Shown here piece by piece: positions 2,206-7,621 of a stretch of DNA of 7,621 nt. The notes beneath the pieces are model-generated. The model ran no database searches. It saw only the letters and a program-made list of their open reading frames with translations, and had not been told where the DNA came from. The number at the start of each line of letters is the position of its first letter. Within the stretch, counting starts at the first letter, position 1. This DNA comes from Candidatus Hydrogenedentes bacterium CG07_land_8_20_14_0_80_42_17. GTDB lineage: Bacteria > UBA8481. Location: NCBI GenBank assembly GCA_002780065.1, contig PEWQ01000191.1, forward strand, positions 1 through 7,621, read 5' to 3'. A program made the position numbers and the translations under genes.

Positions 2206-2265
2206 ATGAAATTTAGGGTGGAACTAAAAAAGAACTCAGTTGCCTCAAGGTCGAAAAATAGATGA
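2206..2265 (+). CDS. Possible 19-codon leader peptide overlapping the GGDEF start (ATGA)
   Basis: A short frame opens at ATG 2206, encodes a basic peptide beginning MKFRVE and ending SKNR, and stops at TGA 2263-2265. That stop overlaps the ATG of the next gene (2262-2264) as ATGA. It has no Shine-Dalgarno site, but a promoter candidate would start transcription almost at its ATG, so it could be read as a leaderless message and couple translation to the cyclase gene. The frame is short enough to arise by chance. I recognise no family. The overlap and promoter position are seen; expression is inferred. Confidence 0.3.
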   Translation: MKFRVELKKNSVASRSKNR

Positions 2266-3800
2266 AGTTCGTTGATAGAATTTTTCGAATAGACGAAGGT
2301 AAACTGGTTATCCAGAATAAAATTTCTTTATATGCGGGATTCATTGCCGTTTTGCTTCCTGTTCTTTTTGTAATACTAAATAATTTTTTTGGAGCCTCTA
2401 CTCATCCTCACAATCAGCCGACAGCTATTGCAAATTTTGAAGTCAATTCAAGGGTTTATTGGATTTATTTTATTTCTCTTTCTTTATCAGTTCCTATTCT
2501 TTCATTTTTATGGGGTGGCCATATAGGAGCGGGAGTAAGCGTCGGGCTCTCGATACCATTTATTATACTTCTGCTTTTTAATATCACTTCAATGTCGCAT
2601 AGTTATGGAGTAAGAAGCGACGATATATTGAGTTCAATAGTTGGATTGATTGCGGCGATTATTACTTGTATTGGAATTACTCGGCTCGGCGAAAAAATCG
2701 GCGAAGCGAGGCTGAATCTGCGCGGGAAAATAGCTTCATCGTGGGATCATTATCAAGATATGTCTGCTAAAAAAAATCTTCTTCACTTGCAGATAGAAGA
2801 AACGAAAAAAAAATCGAGTGCTATGAATTTGCTGATACAAAAAATAAAAAGCCTGATCGATTCCAGTTCCGATTTAGCAAAAGAGTTGGATTTATCAAAG
2901 ACAGCTAAATATGTAGCTCATAACGCAAGGGAGATACTTGGCAGAGGTCGAGTGCTGGTTTACAGATACAATCAGACTGGAAGTTCGCTTCTTTATGCGG
3001 AACCGCCGCTTCAATCGAATGAATCGGCAAACGGAGAAGATTTCAATTCGATAGTAAAGCGCCGCAGAAAAAATTTATTGTTGTCGGATATTTCACAGAA
3101 TTATCAGATTGCTCCAAGCAGTCCGATGGAGCGAAAATTTAATTCTCTGATTCTTGTTCCGCTTATGACAGGTTATGATGTTTGGGGAGTGATTCGGGTC
3201 GAGTCTCTGCAAAAATCCGATTTTACACGCGACGACCTTTCTGCTATCGACATGCTTTCTGTTCCGGCAACGCTTGCATTGCACAATGCAGATCTTTACT
3301 CTCTTTTGGCTCAGAAAGCTGTGACAGACGGTTTGACCGGTTTATATCGTAGGCATTTATTTGAGAAGAGAATAGAGATTGAGATATCGAGAGCAAGAAG
3401 AGGAGGTAAAAATCTTTCTCTTATATTTTTGGATATCGATTATTTCAAATCGGTGAACGATAATTTTGGGCATAGAGTCGGAGATTTAGTTTTGAAAGAG
3501 ATATCCGCTGTTTTGATAGAGGAGACGGTTGCGCCGGGAATTGCTGCGAGATACGGCGGAGAAGAATTTGTTTTGCTTATGCCTGAAACAAACAAAAAAG
3601 ACGCTCTGGAAAAAGCTGAAGCTATCAGGCAAAGAGTGGAACAGAAGAAATTTGAAGAATTGAATCGAACAATGACTATTTCAGCAGGCGTTGCATCATA
3701 TCCTGATGATGCAACATCTTCGAAAAACTTAATTGAGCAGGCAGATAACGCGGTTTATATGTCTAAGAGGAATGGCCGCAATAGAGTGACGCCGGCATGA
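2262..3800 (+). CDS. Membrane-anchored GAF-GGDEF diguanylate cyclase (no RxxD I-site)
   Basis: It should make cyclic di-GMP from two GTP at the inner face of the membrane. The N-terminus holds four probable transmembrane segments (about 22-43, 64-85, 88-109 and 121-142). A helical linker, probably coiled coil, follows (about 145-205), then a GAF-like sensor region (about 206-348) and a C-terminal GGDEF domain (about 350-512). In the last, DGLTGL (356-361), the metal-binding DID (391-393) and the active-site GGEEF (432-436) are intact. The product-inhibition I-site (RxxD) is replaced by VAPG (423-426), so feedback by c-di-GMP through this site should be absent. The start is fixed by an in-frame TAG (2259-2261) directly before the ATG; AAGG at 2247-2250 is a weak Shine-Dalgarno candidate 11 nt away. 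Its stop overlaps the next gene by ATGA, so the two are cotranslated and probably function together. The ligand of the GAF region is unknown. Confidence 0.9.
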   Translation: MKFVDRIFRIDEGKLVIQNKISLYAGFIAVLLPVLFVILNNFFGASTHPHNQPTAIANFEVNSRVYWIYFISLSLSVPILSFLWGGHIGAGVSVGLSIPFIILLLFNITSMSHSYGVRSDDILSSIVGLIAAIITCIGITRLGEKIGEARLNLRGKIASSWDHYQDMSAKKNLLHLQIEETKKKSSAMNLLIQKIKSLIDSSSDLAKELDLSKTAKYVAHNAREILGRGRVLVYRYNQTGSSLLYAEPPLQSNESANGEDFNSIVKRRRKNLLLSDISQNYQIAPSSPMERKFNSLILVPLMTGYDVWGVIRVESLQKSDFTRDDLSAIDMLSVPATLALHNADLYSLLAQKAVTDGLTGLYRRHLFEKRIEIEISRARRGGKNLSLIFLDIDYFKSVNDNFGHRVGDLVLKEISAVLIEETVAPGIAARYGGEEFVLLMPETNKKDALEKAEAIRQRVEQKKFEELNRTMTISAGVASYPDDATSSKNLIEQADNAVYMSKRNGRNRVTPA

Positions 3801-5113
3801 ACTCTTCAGGAACAATTGGATATTCAATGCTGATGATCGACGCTATTGCAGGCTTATCGGTTTATTTTGCGGCATTGATTTTTCCGATGTGTTTAGCAAA
3901 GCGCCGAAAGTTTTTTCTCTATTCTATAGCTTTGCTATCCGCTCTTCTTCTATTGACTTTACGGATAATTCTGCCTGCAATGAATTCGGCTCAATATCTT
4001 TTGCTATCTCTGCCAGTGCTCTTTATTATTGCCGGCATAGCGGCAAAACTGCAGAGTGATTTTTCTGCTACCATTTCCGAATATGAAGAGAAGAGAAGAT
4101 TGCCGCTGGAGGCTGAGATTGCTAGAATGGAGTCTGAAAACGAAGAAAATGCTGATCACTTTATAAAATTGCAAAATACATTTAATTCAATAAATAGAAA
4201 ATTCAATTTTGTTAAGTCTTTTGGCTCATCGCTTCGATTTGAAACTGCATGGTTAGATATAGAGAATGGGACAAGAGCTCTTTTGAATACTACTCCGATT
4301 TTACATCTTCCGAGACTGCCCGGTTCAATACCGTCCGGATTTTTTCCGTTTGTAGAAAACGGCAACGAATTATTTTCTCGAAGAGAATGGGTGGAAGCAA
4401 TAGGAGGGGAGAGAAAAGAGTCAAGGGAACTGGAGAACAATCGCTTAATTTGGATTCCGCTCTTTTTTGGTGATGGGCAGAAAGCGGTTCTACATCTCAA
4501 AACTGATCAAAATATTGATGACGATGCTGTTGAGATATTTGCAACTCAATTGAACCTTCTTTTGGAAAAGATGCGGCTTTACAATGAAGTCGAATTGCAG
4601 TCAAGAACGGATTTGATGACCGGTCTGTCGCATCATGCGGCTTTCAAGGAAATTTTTGAAGAAGAAGTTGACCGAGCGCGAAGAATGGAACGCTCGGTCT
4701 CGCTTCTTATGATAGATGTGGACTTTTTTAAACAAGTAAATGATACTCACGGGCATTTAGTTGGAGATCAGGTTTTAATTCATGTTGCGAAAAATATCAG
4801 AGATATGGTTCGCATTTCGGACAGTGTTGCGCGTTATGGCGGAGAAGAATTTGCTGTAATACTTCCTGAAACTGGGATTGACGGAGCAAAAGAGATTGCT
4901 GAACGGATAAGAGCAAGAATTGAGGACTCACCGATAACAGTGAAGACAGAGACAGAAGAGAAGACAATTCGAAAAACCATTTCTGTCGGAATAGCATCGT
5001 CACCTCCTATTTCTAAAAACTCAGTTGAACTAATATCTGCGGCTGATGCGGCGTTATATTGCGCAAAACGTAGCGGAAGAAATCGCGTTGAAGCTTCCGA
5101 GAACACAAAATAA
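3797..5113 (+). CDS. Membrane-anchored GGDEF diguanylate cyclase with intact RxxD I-site
   Basis: This second probable diguanylate cyclase is translationally coupled to the first, its ATG overlapping the preceding TGA. Three hydrophobic segments (about 11-34, 38-60 and 66-84) anchor it. A charged helical stretch, likely coiled coil, follows (about 88-135), then a divergent GAF-like region (about 140-262) and a GGDEF domain (about 268-435). The domain retains TDLMTGL (271-277), the metal-binding DVD (307-309), the I-site RISD (339-342) and the active-site GGEEF (348-352). It should therefore be catalytic and subject to product inhibition. The overall plan matches the upstream protein, suggesting tandem duplication followed by strong divergence of the sensor half. 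Initiation at 3797 relies on coupling, since no strong Shine-Dalgarno site is present; Met11 (3827) is an alternative. An AT-rich hairpin closes the operon. The signal sensed is unknown. Confidence 0.9.
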   Translation: MNSSGTIGYSMLMIDAIAGLSVYFAALIFPMCLAKRRKFFLYSIALLSALLLLTLRIILPAMNSAQYLLLSLPVLFIIAGIAAKLQSDFSATISEYEEKRRLPLEAEIARMESENEENADHFIKLQNTFNSINRKFNFVKSFGSSLRFETAWLDIENGTRALLNTTPILHLPRLPGSIPSGFFPFVENGNELFSRREWVEAIGGERKESRELENNRLIWIPLFFGDGQKAVLHLKTDQNIDDDAVEIFATQLNLLLEKMRLYNEVELQSRTDLMTGLSHHAAFKEIFEEEVDRARRMERSVSLLMIDVDFFKQVNDTHGHLVGDQVLIHVAKNIRDMVRISDSVARYGGEEFAVILPETGIDGAKEIAERIRARIEDSPITVKTETEEKTIRKTISVGIASSPPISKNSVELISAADAALYCAKRSGRNRVEASENTK

Positions 5114-5128
5114 ATATTTTGAGTTTTT
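5102..5128 (+). terminator. Weak intrinsic terminator candidate after the GGDEF pair
   Basis: AACACAAAATA (5102-5112) and TATTTTGAGTT (5115-5125) can fold into an imperfect hairpin with one A-A mismatch. A run of five T (5124-5128) overlaps the base of the 3' arm, so only three T remain after it. The hairpin spans the stop codon of the second cyclase gene. The stem is mostly A-T pairs, so it would be weak. Confidence 0.35.
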
Positions 5129-5161
5129 CCAATTTTCATTTTTCAATTATTTCACACGCTC
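5124..5161 (+). repeat. 38-bp exact direct repeat, copy 1
   Basis: This AT-rich element starts TTTTTCCAATTTTC and ends TTTCACACGCTC, and is identical over 38 bases to 5277-5314. The two copies begin 153 bp apart. The identity ends sharply on both sides. It lies in the spacer left of the ars operon. Confidence 0.9.
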
Positions 5162-5189
5162 TTTGCGAAAGGAAAATTGCATCTCATCT

Positions 5190-5220
5190 GGAGGCACGCA
5201 CGCTACGCATCAATGCCTTC
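5190..5220 (+). other. Possible hairpin between the 38-bp repeats
   Basis: GGAGGCA (5190-5196) can pair with TGCCTTC (5214-5220), with one G-T pair, around a 17-nt loop. The segment is markedly richer in G+C than the flanking repeats. No T-run follows, so it does not look like a terminator, and its role is unknown. Confidence 0.3.
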
Positions 5221-5276
5221 AAGACGAGTTATAATATTTGAAATTGCAAATTGGAAAGTGCAAATTGAAAATTTTA

Positions 5277-5314
5277 TTTTTCCAATTTTCATTTTTCAAT
5301 TATTTCACACGCTC
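5277..5314 (+). repeat. 38-bp exact direct repeat, copy 2
   Basis: It is identical to 5124-5161. Just before this copy, further AATTGGAAA- and AATTGAAAA-like words (5249-5257, 5263-5271) are reverse complements of words inside the repeat (5279-5287, 5293-5301), and TGAAAATT (5266-5273) can pair with AATTTTCA (5284-5291). The region therefore carries both direct and inverted copies of one short motif family, as in dispersed intergenic repeats. Confidence 0.9.
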
Positions 5315-5321
5315 GACGGGA

Positions 5322-5357
5322 GAGGACAGGGGAGAAGACAGTGGTGAGGACATGAAA
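5322..5357 (+). repeat. Three imperfect 12-bp tandem units headed GAGGACA
   Basis: GAGGACA, GAAGACA and GAGGACA begin at 5322, 5334 and 5346, exactly 12 bp apart, with variable five-base tails. The array starts directly after the second 38-bp repeat. It is purine-rich on this strand and does not sit in any convincing reading frame. Confidence 0.55.
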
Positions 5358-5414: not shown

Positions 5415-5444
5415 TTGACAATTCGTTATATGACGAAATAACGT
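5415..5444 (+). promoter_or_regulatory. arsR operon promoter
   Basis: A consensus -35 TTGACA (5415-5420) is followed 18 bp later by a poor -10, TAACGT (5439-5444). Transcription would begin near 5451, leaving a leader of about 20 nt with the arsR Shine-Dalgarno site GGGAG (5459-5463). The -35 is convincing and the exact -10 is not; CGTAAT (5442-5447) is an alternative with a long spacer. Confidence 0.6.
5422..5443. promoter_or_regulatory. ArsR operator: two overlapping inverted repeats
   Basis: TTCGT and ACGAA flank TATATG (5422-5437), giving a near-perfect 16-bp palindrome with one mismatched pair. An overlapping perfect inverted repeat, CGTTAT with ATAACG separated by 8 bp, spans 5424-5443. 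Both sit between the -35 and -10 elements, where a bound ArsR dimer would block RNA polymerase. The palindromes are seen; ArsR binding is inferred from family behaviour and position. Confidence 0.6.
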
Positions 5445-5470: not shown

Positions 5471-5866
5471 ATGAACAACAATGACAAGATTTTTTTGAAG
5501 AACTTTATACGCATCACAAAGGTACTGGCTGATGAGAGCCGAGTTCGCATCTTGCGGCTCGTTATGGAAAAGGAACTCTGCGTCTGCCAAATCATCGAGA
5601 CAATTCAGTTGGCACCATCGACGGTTTCAAAGCACCTTTTGCTTCTCAAACAAGCTGGGCTTGTCGATTCACTTAAACGCGGTCGGTGGATGCACTATAG
5701 GGTTGCTTCTGCCGAAAGAAGGTCGGCGGCGGCGGACATACTTACACTTGTAAGAAAGGCTCTCAGCCATGACATTCAGATTGAGAGTGACTTAAAGCGG
5801 CTGAAAATTATTCTCAAAATGAATCGCGAAGATCTTTGCCGAAGGCAGATAGGGCGAAAAAAATGA
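5471..5866 (+). CDS. arsR: ArsR/SmtB-family As(III)-responsive repressor
   Basis: This winged-helix repressor should bind the palindrome in its own promoter and release it when As(III) or Sb(III) binds. The 131-residue protein starts with the usual ArsR helix (KVLADESRVRILRLV, 17-31). It then carries ELCVC (35-39), matching the metal-binding ELCVC segment of enterobacterial ArsR with Cys37 and Cys39. The third Cys of the E. coli type (three residues on) is absent; the position is Ile42. The recognition helix is APSTVSKHLLLLKQAGLV (48-65). A basic C-terminal tail holds one more Cys (123), which could be a third ligand. GGGAG (5459-5463) lies 7 nt before the ATG. It is the first gene of the ars operon, 31 bp before the next start. 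Function is assigned with high confidence; the exact ligand set is inferred. Confidence 0.93.
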   Translation: MNNNDKIFLKNFIRITKVLADESRVRILRLVMEKELCVCQIIETIQLAPSTVSKHLLLLKQAGLVDSLKRGRWMHYRVASAERRSAAADILTLVRKALSHDIQIESDLKRLKIILKMNREDLCRRQIGRKK

Positions 5867-5897
5867 AAAGATATTTTTAATGAAGGAGGATATTTCT

Positions 5898-6077
5898 ATG
5901 AAATCGGATAATAAGGAAGATAAAGATCAGAGTGAAGCGAAATCTAAGTCTAAAGGGCTACTCTCGCGGTTTATCGATAAGATCGACAAGTCGCTTGAAG
6001 AGAAGGCAAAGAAAACAAAGTCTCCGTGCTGTTCAGGTTCCAATTCAAGGGGTGGTAAGGGCTCTTCGTGTTGCTGA
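5898..6077 (+). CDS. Small ars-operon protein with two vicinal Cys pairs, function unknown
   Basis: A 59-residue soluble protein lies between arsR and the permease gene. The start at 5898 is preferred because AAGGAGGA (5883-5890) lies 7 nt upstream, one of the strongest ribosome sites in the window; an upstream in-frame ATG (5880) would place that site inside the gene. Residues 1-20 are Lys, Ser, Glu and Asp rich. Residues 20-40 look like an amphipathic helix ([20 protein letters not shown]). The tail is Gly/Ser rich with Cys44-Cys45 and a C-terminal Cys58-Cys59. There is no signal peptide or membrane segment. Vicinal Cys pairs are known As(III) ligands in the ArsD metallochaperone, so binding As(III) and passing it to the permease or pump is a reasonable inference, not a demonstrated role. 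Its 3' end overlaps the permease gene by 10 nt, which favours coupled translation. I recognise no named family. Confidence 0.8.
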
Positions 6078-7012
6078 AATTTGTCGATGGACTTGTTTAC
6101 GACATTCTCAAATTGCCGCAGGGAGGTCGACTCGGCGCATCTGTAAGCTTTTTTGTTTACGACTCGATCAAGATTCTTCTACTGCTGTATGGAATGATAT
6201 TCGTCATTGGAGTTCTGCGAACGTTTCTTCCACAGGAAAAAGTCAAGGGGTGGATGACTGGCACTGGAATTTTCGGCAACTTTGGTGCCGCATTATTCGG
6301 ATCGGTCACACCGTTCTGCTCTTGCTCCTCGGTTCCGATCTTCATCGGATTCATGGAGGCGGGAGTGCCTTTGGGAGTAGCGTTTTCATTCCTGATCACA
6401 TCTCCTTTGGTCAATGAATATCTTGTGGTTTTGATGCTGGGATTTTTTGGATGGCGTATCATGGCACTCTATGTGGGGAGCGGCATCTTAATCGGCGCCG
6501 TTGCAGGGGCAGTGCTGGGACGAATGCAGTTGGAAAAATATCTTGTAAGAGATCTCGTTGTGGAAAACGGAGCTATCACGGAGTCCCAGTCATTTTCGGA
6601 TTTTGGGGCACGTATGAAATTCGGTTTCGACGAAGCCTCGTCCATAACGAAGAAAATATGGCTCTGGGTGCTTATCGGAGTCGGAATCGGTGCGGGAATA
6701 CATAACTTCGTGCCGCAGGAAACACTGCAAAGGATTGCGGGTTCCGCCGGTATTTTTTCCGTCCCGATAGCTGTTCTTGTGGGCGTGCCGATGTATGGCA
6801 GTTGCGCCGCTATAGTCCCGATAGCGATCGTTCTGTTTCAGAAAGGAGTTCCGCTCGGAACCGCTCTCGCATTCATGATGGCTACAGCGGCATTGAGTCT
6901 TCCGGAAGCCATCATGCTGAGGCGGGCGATGAAGCTGGAGCTCATCCTTGTGTTTTTCGGAGTGACGACGATTGCTATCATCATAATAGGATACCTCTTC
7001 AATGTCTTGTGA
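6068..7012 (+). CDS. arsP: ArsP/DUF318-family permease (probable organoarsenical exporter)
   Basis: This inner-membrane permease belongs to the family of ArsP, which exports trivalent organoarsenicals such as methylarsenite. The 314-residue protein has about eight hydrophobic segments. The signature [10 protein letters not shown] (81-90, Cys84 and Cys86) is followed by TSPLVNE (111-117). The second half repeats the layout with [11 protein letters not shown] (243-253, Cys246) and ATAALSLPE (272-280), showing an internal duplication. The start is GTG at 6068, supported by AAGGG (6057-6061) 6 nt upstream. It overlaps the small cysteine gene by 10 nt and arsC by 11 nt. The Cys residues may bind trivalent arsenic. 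The family also includes members of unknown substrate, so organoarsenical transport is inferred from family and operon; inorganic arsenite or another thiophilic ion cannot be excluded. Confidence 0.87.
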
Positions 7013-7475
7013 ACTAGACTTCAAACGTTTGAAAATACTCTTTCTCTGTACTGGCAACTCCTGCCGTTCGCAGATGGCCGAGGGCTGGGCGCACGCGTTG
7101 AAGAACGACGTGATAGAGGCATACTCAGCCGGAATCGAGATGCACGGCCTGAACCCTCGCGCGGTTGAGGTGATGAAGGAGGCCGGGGTCGATATTTCAG
7201 GTCACAGATCTAAACTCGTCGATGAATTTCGTGACGAGAATTTCGACGCGGTCGTGACTGTCTGCGGCCATGCCAACGAGACCTGCCCCATGTGGCTCGG
7301 AGCCAAGACGCGCATTATTCACGTCGGTTTCGACGACCCGCCAAAGCTGGCGAAGGACGCCAAATCGGAAGAAGAAGCGCTGGCGCACTACCGTCGCGTC
7401 CGCGATGAGATCAAATTGTTTATCCAATCGTTACCTGAGGCATTAAGCGCCCCGGAAGGAGTTCACCATGAGTGA
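7002..7475 (+). CDS. arsC: Arsenate reductase, thioredoxin-coupled LMW-phosphatase type
   Basis: This cytoplasmic enzyme reduces arsenate to arsenite using a disulfide cascade that ends on thioredoxin. The 157-residue protein shows the P-loop CTGNSCR (Cys16 to Arg22, the CX5R motif). The second redox pair, Cys88 and Cys95, lies in [10 protein letters not shown], and the acid/base Asp is in DDPP (111-114). These match the Cys10/Cys82/Cys89 triad of the S. aureus pI258 enzyme. The length is slightly above that family because of short N- and C-terminal extensions. The ATG at 7002 overlaps the permease stop by 11 nt, with TAGGA (6987-6991) 10 nt upstream. Its product is substrate for the efflux pump encoded next. 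The gene is G+C richer than the left half of the window (35 of 60 at 7081-7140). Confidence 0.95.
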
Positions 7476-7621
7476 AACATCAAAACGGCTTTCGTTTCTC
7501 GATCGGTATTTGACAGTTTGGATATTCCTGGCCATGGCGCTTGGTGTGGGCGGAGGTTACATCTTTTCCGGCATCAATGCGTTTCTGGAACGGTTCTCTG
7601 TCGGCACGACCTCCATCCCCA
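7468..7621 (+). CDS. acr3: ACR3-family arsenite efflux pump (partial, N-terminus only)
   Basis: Only the first 51 codons lie in the window. The translation begins [20 protein letters not shown], continues with a hydrophobic first membrane segment rich in Gly (about 16-34), and reaches VGTTSIP (45-51). The LDRYLTxWIF opening and the GTTSIP element are characteristic of bacterial Acr3 proteins (BASS superfamily), which export arsenite at the inner membrane. The start overlaps the arsC stop by 8 nt and has AAGGA (7456-7460) 7 nt upstream, so the two are translationally coupled. The catalytic Cys of the family lies beyond the window and cannot be checked. Confidence 0.9.

Follow-up and report, generated by a model that had tools for sequence, protein, structure and literature searches.

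The window, by which we mean the whole 7,621-nt stretch analysed here, carries an ars operon from position 5471 onward, with the gene order arsR-small-permease-arsC-acr3. Among the other predicted genes are an ABC ATPase (957-2066) and, just upstream of the operon, a pair of diguanylate cyclases (2262-3800 and 3797-5113) that overlap by 4 nt. The first gene of the operon (5471..5866, forward strand, as for all operon features below) encodes an ArsR/SmtB-type regulator that matched NF033788 at 82.7 bits, above the cut-off of 55. Upstream of it, a dyad read from the sequence (CGTTAT-N8-ATAACG, 5424..5443) stands beside a TTGACA box and looks like an ArsR operator, a candidate that the promoter scan did not pick out. 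Downstream of the permease lies a thioredoxin-type arsenate reductase of the LMWP fold, ArsC (7002..7475), which matched PF01451 at 2.6e-20 and TIGR02691 at 7e-45, the latter with 152 bits and so below the model cut-off of 174. The last gene, for an Acr3 arsenite transporter, runs past the end of the window; its 5′ part (7468..7621) matched TIGR00832 over residues 8-51 (3e-8). The region between the GGDEF gene and arsR (5124-5326) holds a 50-nt AT-rich direct repeat in two copies that are 90% alike and 153 nt apart; a further, smaller repeat and an inverted repeat that is imperfect are also present.

Our attention was directed at the second gene of the operon (5898..6077), which encodes a protein of 59 amino acids plus a stop codon. 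Its head is rich in lysine, and its two CC pairs fall at residues 44-45, encoded at 6027..6032 and therefore outside the gene overlap, and at residues 58-59. The Shine-Dalgarno sequence AAGGAGG (5883..5889) pairs with the anti-SD sequence at -11.7 kcal/mol, the best value in the window, compared with -8.3 for Acr3, -8.1 for the permease and -7.3 for ArsR. An alternative ATG at 5880 has almost no such pairing (-0.9), which makes 5898 the likely start. The last 10 nt of the gene (6068..6077) contain both the terminal Cys-Cys-stop and the start codon of the permease, which is GTG in the window and ATG at the identical spot in relatives. These results bear out what a sequence-only reading had described: a 59-residue protein with these CC pairs, the strongest ribosome site in the operon, and a 10-nt overlap with the ArsP gene. 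AlphaFold2 predicted a single helix (residues 15-40) with loose tails at pLDDT 50-70. The amphipathicity of this helix was significant against shuffled sequences in the window protein (p 0.007). Across the family, hydrophobicity repeats with a period close to that of a helix; the mean peak lies at 90 degrees, and about 21% of members were significant at 100 degrees.

The permease (6068..7012) is a 314-residue ArsP_1 protein (PF03773, 1e-64; 219 bits against a gathering score of 32.3) whose only cysteines are C84, C86 and C246. The first two form the C(S/T)C motif of a membrane segment (FCSCSS), and the TPF-CSC signature corresponds to cluster 2 of Yang et al. 2015 (PMC4435449). The best NCBIfam matches were the SO_0444 Cu/Zn exporter and SaoE, the latter used here as a model name only, and both were far below cut-off. 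A PDB fold search with the permease gave nothing at E <= 0.001, and no solved structure related to either the permease or the small protein came up in sequence searches.

The small protein belongs to a family that is previously undescribed, widespread and missing from current family libraries. No convincing Pfam or NCBIfam family was found for the window protein or 65 relatives, no homologue was found by tblastn of the 59-residue protein in plasmids or by a scan of viral contigs, and literature searches found no paper on such a family. Whole-genome searches gave matches in 91/384 genomes of the Velamenicoccus (Omnitrophota) phylum, in 24/279 of a Woesearchaeota-like phylum (a few of them false), in 11/288 of the Cerasicoccus (Verrucomicrobiota) phylum, and in 2/198 and 4/46 genomes of two further phyla, each identified by a genome titled Deltaproteobacteria; all phylum names used here are taken from the titles of records. 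The window's own phylum was represented by two genomes in the searched set, and the relatives compared here come from other lineages. In all, we read about 126 loci with an intact small-plus-permease pair, from bacteria and archaea, among them an arsR-small-permease locus (L020) of the cultured Cerasicoccus maritimus; weak or truncated matches without a permease (L142, L204, L226, L227) were left out of the counts.

In a set of 88 intact members, the proteins are 34-59 residues long and follow one pattern: a Lys-rich head, the stretch KKGFFxRLxEKLDKKMEEKAK (its Asp kept in 86/88), CC or CCC, a Gly/Ser/Lys/Asp linker, and terminal Cys. The sequence-only reading had proposed to look for the Cys pairs in related operons, and they proved conserved: the middle positions are kept in 84/88 and 81/87 members, the first terminal Cys in 84/87 and the second Cys after it in 78/82. 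With the last codons omitted, 27 close pairs gave a pS of 0.74, a pN of 0.17 and a pooled dN/dS of about 0.066; silent sites were near saturation, and the values indicate purifying selection. Since a homologue also lies in place at all 13 of the nearest permease relatives, the small ORF is not a chance ORF.

The family is tied to one group of permeases. A genome scan with the window permease gave 13 loci at 58-68% identity, the next dropping to 49%, and a small homologue stood directly upstream at each of the 13 (14/14 clade permeases counting the window). A profile of these relatives' small proteins gave no significant match at 67 more distant permease loci, so that the small protein is found at 0/67 outgroup permeases. 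There, a different partner is common: a thioredoxin_3 gene lies near 51/67 outgroup permeases, as against 1/14 in the clade and 3/126 in the wider set. In a tree of 117 permeases, the small-bearing ones fall in one supported clade along with three sampled members without the small gene, a distribution that needs a minimum of four trait changes, such as one gain plus three losses. Across the 384 Velamenicoccus-phylum genomes, a sharp gap in score sets the clade permeases apart (469-555 bits, others at most 371), and the small gene is directly upstream of 84 of 97. The remaining 13 clade permeases indicate that it is not always needed, and a CCS-stop fossil that persists in the overlap of some of them shows that the small protein can be lost. 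The small and permease genes are thus a co-evolving, usually overlapping pair.

The permease has a cysteine of its own that tracks this pairing. C246 (codon 6803..6805) sits in a GSCAAI motif of the second half, equivalent to the CSC motif. C84 and C86 are common to every ArsP_1 permease compared, whereas the C246 position is Cys in 40/42 small-bearing permeases and in 2/72 others, of which 70/72 have Ala. Because trivalent arsenic prefers three thiols, the third permease cysteine may be the counterpart of the Cys tail. The match is a correlation within one clade, whose three permeases without the small gene also carry C246, and we regard it as suggestive.

How much weight the terminal cysteines can bear depends on the overlap. 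The two genes overlap at 107/126 loci, and at 102 of about 126 the permease start codon lies inside the tail Cys codon (xxA TGY). By itself, this arrangement of frames makes Cys (or Trp or stop) favoured there, and the first terminal Cys is therefore partly forced. It is retained without overlap at three loci (L199, L201, L192), but several archaeal loci whose genes do not overlap have lost it. Of the two motifs, the middle CC(C) is the more reliable. Of the earlier proposal of a partner for the permease, the coupling is upheld, and the stress laid on the extreme C-terminal pair should move to the middle one.

Domain fusions link the small domain to arsenate reduction. In two genomes of one phylum (L208, L210), an arsenate reductase is joined in frame to a C-terminal small domain. 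The ArsC active site CTGNSCRS is intact in both, an overlapping clade permease comes next, and arsR lies upstream. Pfam assigns residues 6-140 and 6-138 to the reductase, and about 46 residues remain for the small domain. Fusion to the enzyme that produces arsenite is new evidence linking the small domain to an arsenite source and suggests an undescribed hand-over step in arsenic detoxification.

Within 1.5 kb of the 126 loci we found ArsR at 33, ArsC at 16 and Acr3 at 12, with any of the three at 46 and ArsC or Acr3 at 25; these counts are lower bounds, given the short flanks read. Another ars gene was present in the flanks read of 22/84 Omnitrophota copies, and most are without one. The arsenic assignment is strong for the window operon and the ArsC fusions and weaker for the whole family. 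In one member (L141), a His-rich insert (GGHSHKHDHGHEHGHD) lies between the Cys clusters and an ArsC gene adjoins; the insert is a hint of other metals.

Several known systems offer points of comparison. ArsD, an As(III) metallochaperone of about 120 residues, serves the ArsA ATPase of the ArsAB pump (PMC6205960, PMC2440759); like the small family as read here, it is a small cytoplasmic protein of ars operons that has vicinal Cys pairs and delivers arsenic for efflux. The small protein shares the vicinal pairs but not the size or fold, since the family has 34-59 residues, a predicted single helix with disordered tails, and a permease as its partner. Neither the window protein nor 65 relatives matched ArsD in Pfam or NCBIfam, in agreement with the initial view that the two are unrelated. 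The Thioredoxin_3 proteins (TM0996/MTH895-type) are also small thiol proteins in the same operon slot next to an ArsP_1 permease; they have a CxxC thioredoxin fold rather than a helix and CC tail, neither that fold nor a PF13192 match was found in the small protein, and the two are almost mutually exclusive. Bacterial metallothioneins resemble the family in being very small, Cys-rich and likely soft-metal ligands, but the small family has few Cys and a fixed operon partner, and a Pfam search gave no match to metallothionein family models. The mercury flavoenzyme MerA has a flexible C-terminal tail that ends in a vicinal Cys pair and passes metal to an inner thiol site; the likeness lies in such a tail, and no homology is claimed. 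By annotation, the permease is of the same family as C. jejuni ArsP, a reported exporter of trivalent organoarsenicals, MAs(III) (PMC6205960), and differs in the extra clade-specific cysteine C246.

Based on these observations, we predict that the small family is a dedicated cytoplasmic thiol partner of one ArsP_1 clade that passes trivalent arsenic to a three-cysteine permease, a reading to which we give about an even chance. Binding and transfer of trivalent arsenic by the small protein are what we infer. In the proposed mechanism, the basic helix would lie against the permease or the cytoplasmic side of the membrane, the membrane placement being drawn from an amphipathicity that reaches significance in only about a fifth of members, and the flexible CC(C)...CC tail would capture trivalent arsenic as As(III), possibly as methyl-As(III) or another soft metal, either from the cytoplasm or from ArsC as arsenite is made. 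Thiol exchange would then move the cargo from the tail to C84, C86 and C246 of the permease for export, with the Cys tail standing in for the thioredoxin-fold partner of sister permeases. A more specific version, which we put forward tentatively, is that of a membrane-tethered, disordered metallochaperone family that channels arsenite from ArsC to a three-cysteine permease without an ATPase in bacteria and archaea, a route that Omnitrophota, Woesearchaeota-like archaea and Verrucomicrobiota would share. If true, a function could be named for a small family in roughly one quarter of the sampled Velamenicoccus (Omnitrophota) genomes, and a second kind of arsenic hand-over protein would exist besides ArsD, for a permease without an ATPase. 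The loading of cargo onto ArsP-type permeases would also become directly testable, with the ArsC fusion and the third permease cysteine marking the two ends of the relay.

The same architecture could instead serve the export of another soft metal (Cu, Cd, Zn or Hg species), with ars genes as merely frequent neighbours. The Cu/Zn exporter and SaoE models that best match the permease, far below cut-off as they are, lean this way, as do the His-rich insert and the 80/126 loci without another ars gene in range. Further, a related Nitratiruptor group of ArsR, permease, thioredoxin and ArsC is induced by Cd and Cu (PMC10092412). Nevertheless, the ArsC fusions and the arsR-arsC-acr3 operon of the window speak for arsenic, and the His-rich member itself adjoins ArsC; we consider another cargo unlikely. 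A metallothionein-like buffer that soaks up metalloid, its link to the permease being one of co-regulation, would account for the strong ribosome site, the small size and the 4-7 Cys of most members. The 4-5 Cys that most carry are few for a buffer, and copies without a permease look like remnants. The small gene is tied to a single permease clade, where it lies directly upstream and takes the slot that sister permeases give to another partner; for this reason we judge a pure buffer role rather improbable.

A role as redox partner, in which the CC pairs stand in for thioredoxin and reduce either the disulfide of ArsC or the cysteines of the permease, also seems quite improbable. It would fit the slot taken from a thioredoxin-fold protein and the two fusions to thioredoxin-type ArsC, but the small protein has no thioredoxin fold or match, and that of the window has no CXXC. 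Vicinal CC disulfides are strained and seldom serve as reductants. All 126 loci have the permease as a neighbour, and only 16 have ArsC nearby. The small ORF might finally be a translational leader that mainly loads ribosomes for the overlapping permease, its tail dictated by the overlap. The strong ribosome site and the frequent placing of the permease start inside the tail Cys codon are what such a leader would predict. It would not predict amino acids conserved outside the overlap (the dN/dS value omits the last codons), a terminal Cys retained at the three loci without overlap, or a small domain fused to ArsC, and we regard it as very improbable. The dedicated arsenic partner is the reading that we prefer.

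Some members depart from the usual arrangement. At one locus (L222, G473:C16), an ArsR-type regulator continues in frame, with no stop, into a small domain; this is a fusion or a tight in-frame pair, and the small protein may start at its own internal ATG. Decayed modules were also seen (L125, L126, L183, L243), with either a frameshifted small gene and a truncated permease or an intact small gene and a permease remnant. A selenocysteine variant suggested by an in-frame TGA (L125, L126) was rejected: both hits belong to a single decayed copy that has a frameshift and a truncated permease. Upstream, a DUF134 helix-turn-helix gene is common, making up 21 of the 71 upstream genes scanned in a mixed set. 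Such DUF134 (PF02001) proteins precede small-bearing permeases at many Omnitrophota loci, which weakens the case for arsenic there, and similar ones precede thioredoxin-bearing permeases; L244 and L246-L248 are further loci of this kind. Their presence before both sorts of permease suggests that DUF134 proteins may regulate in response to metals or thiols.
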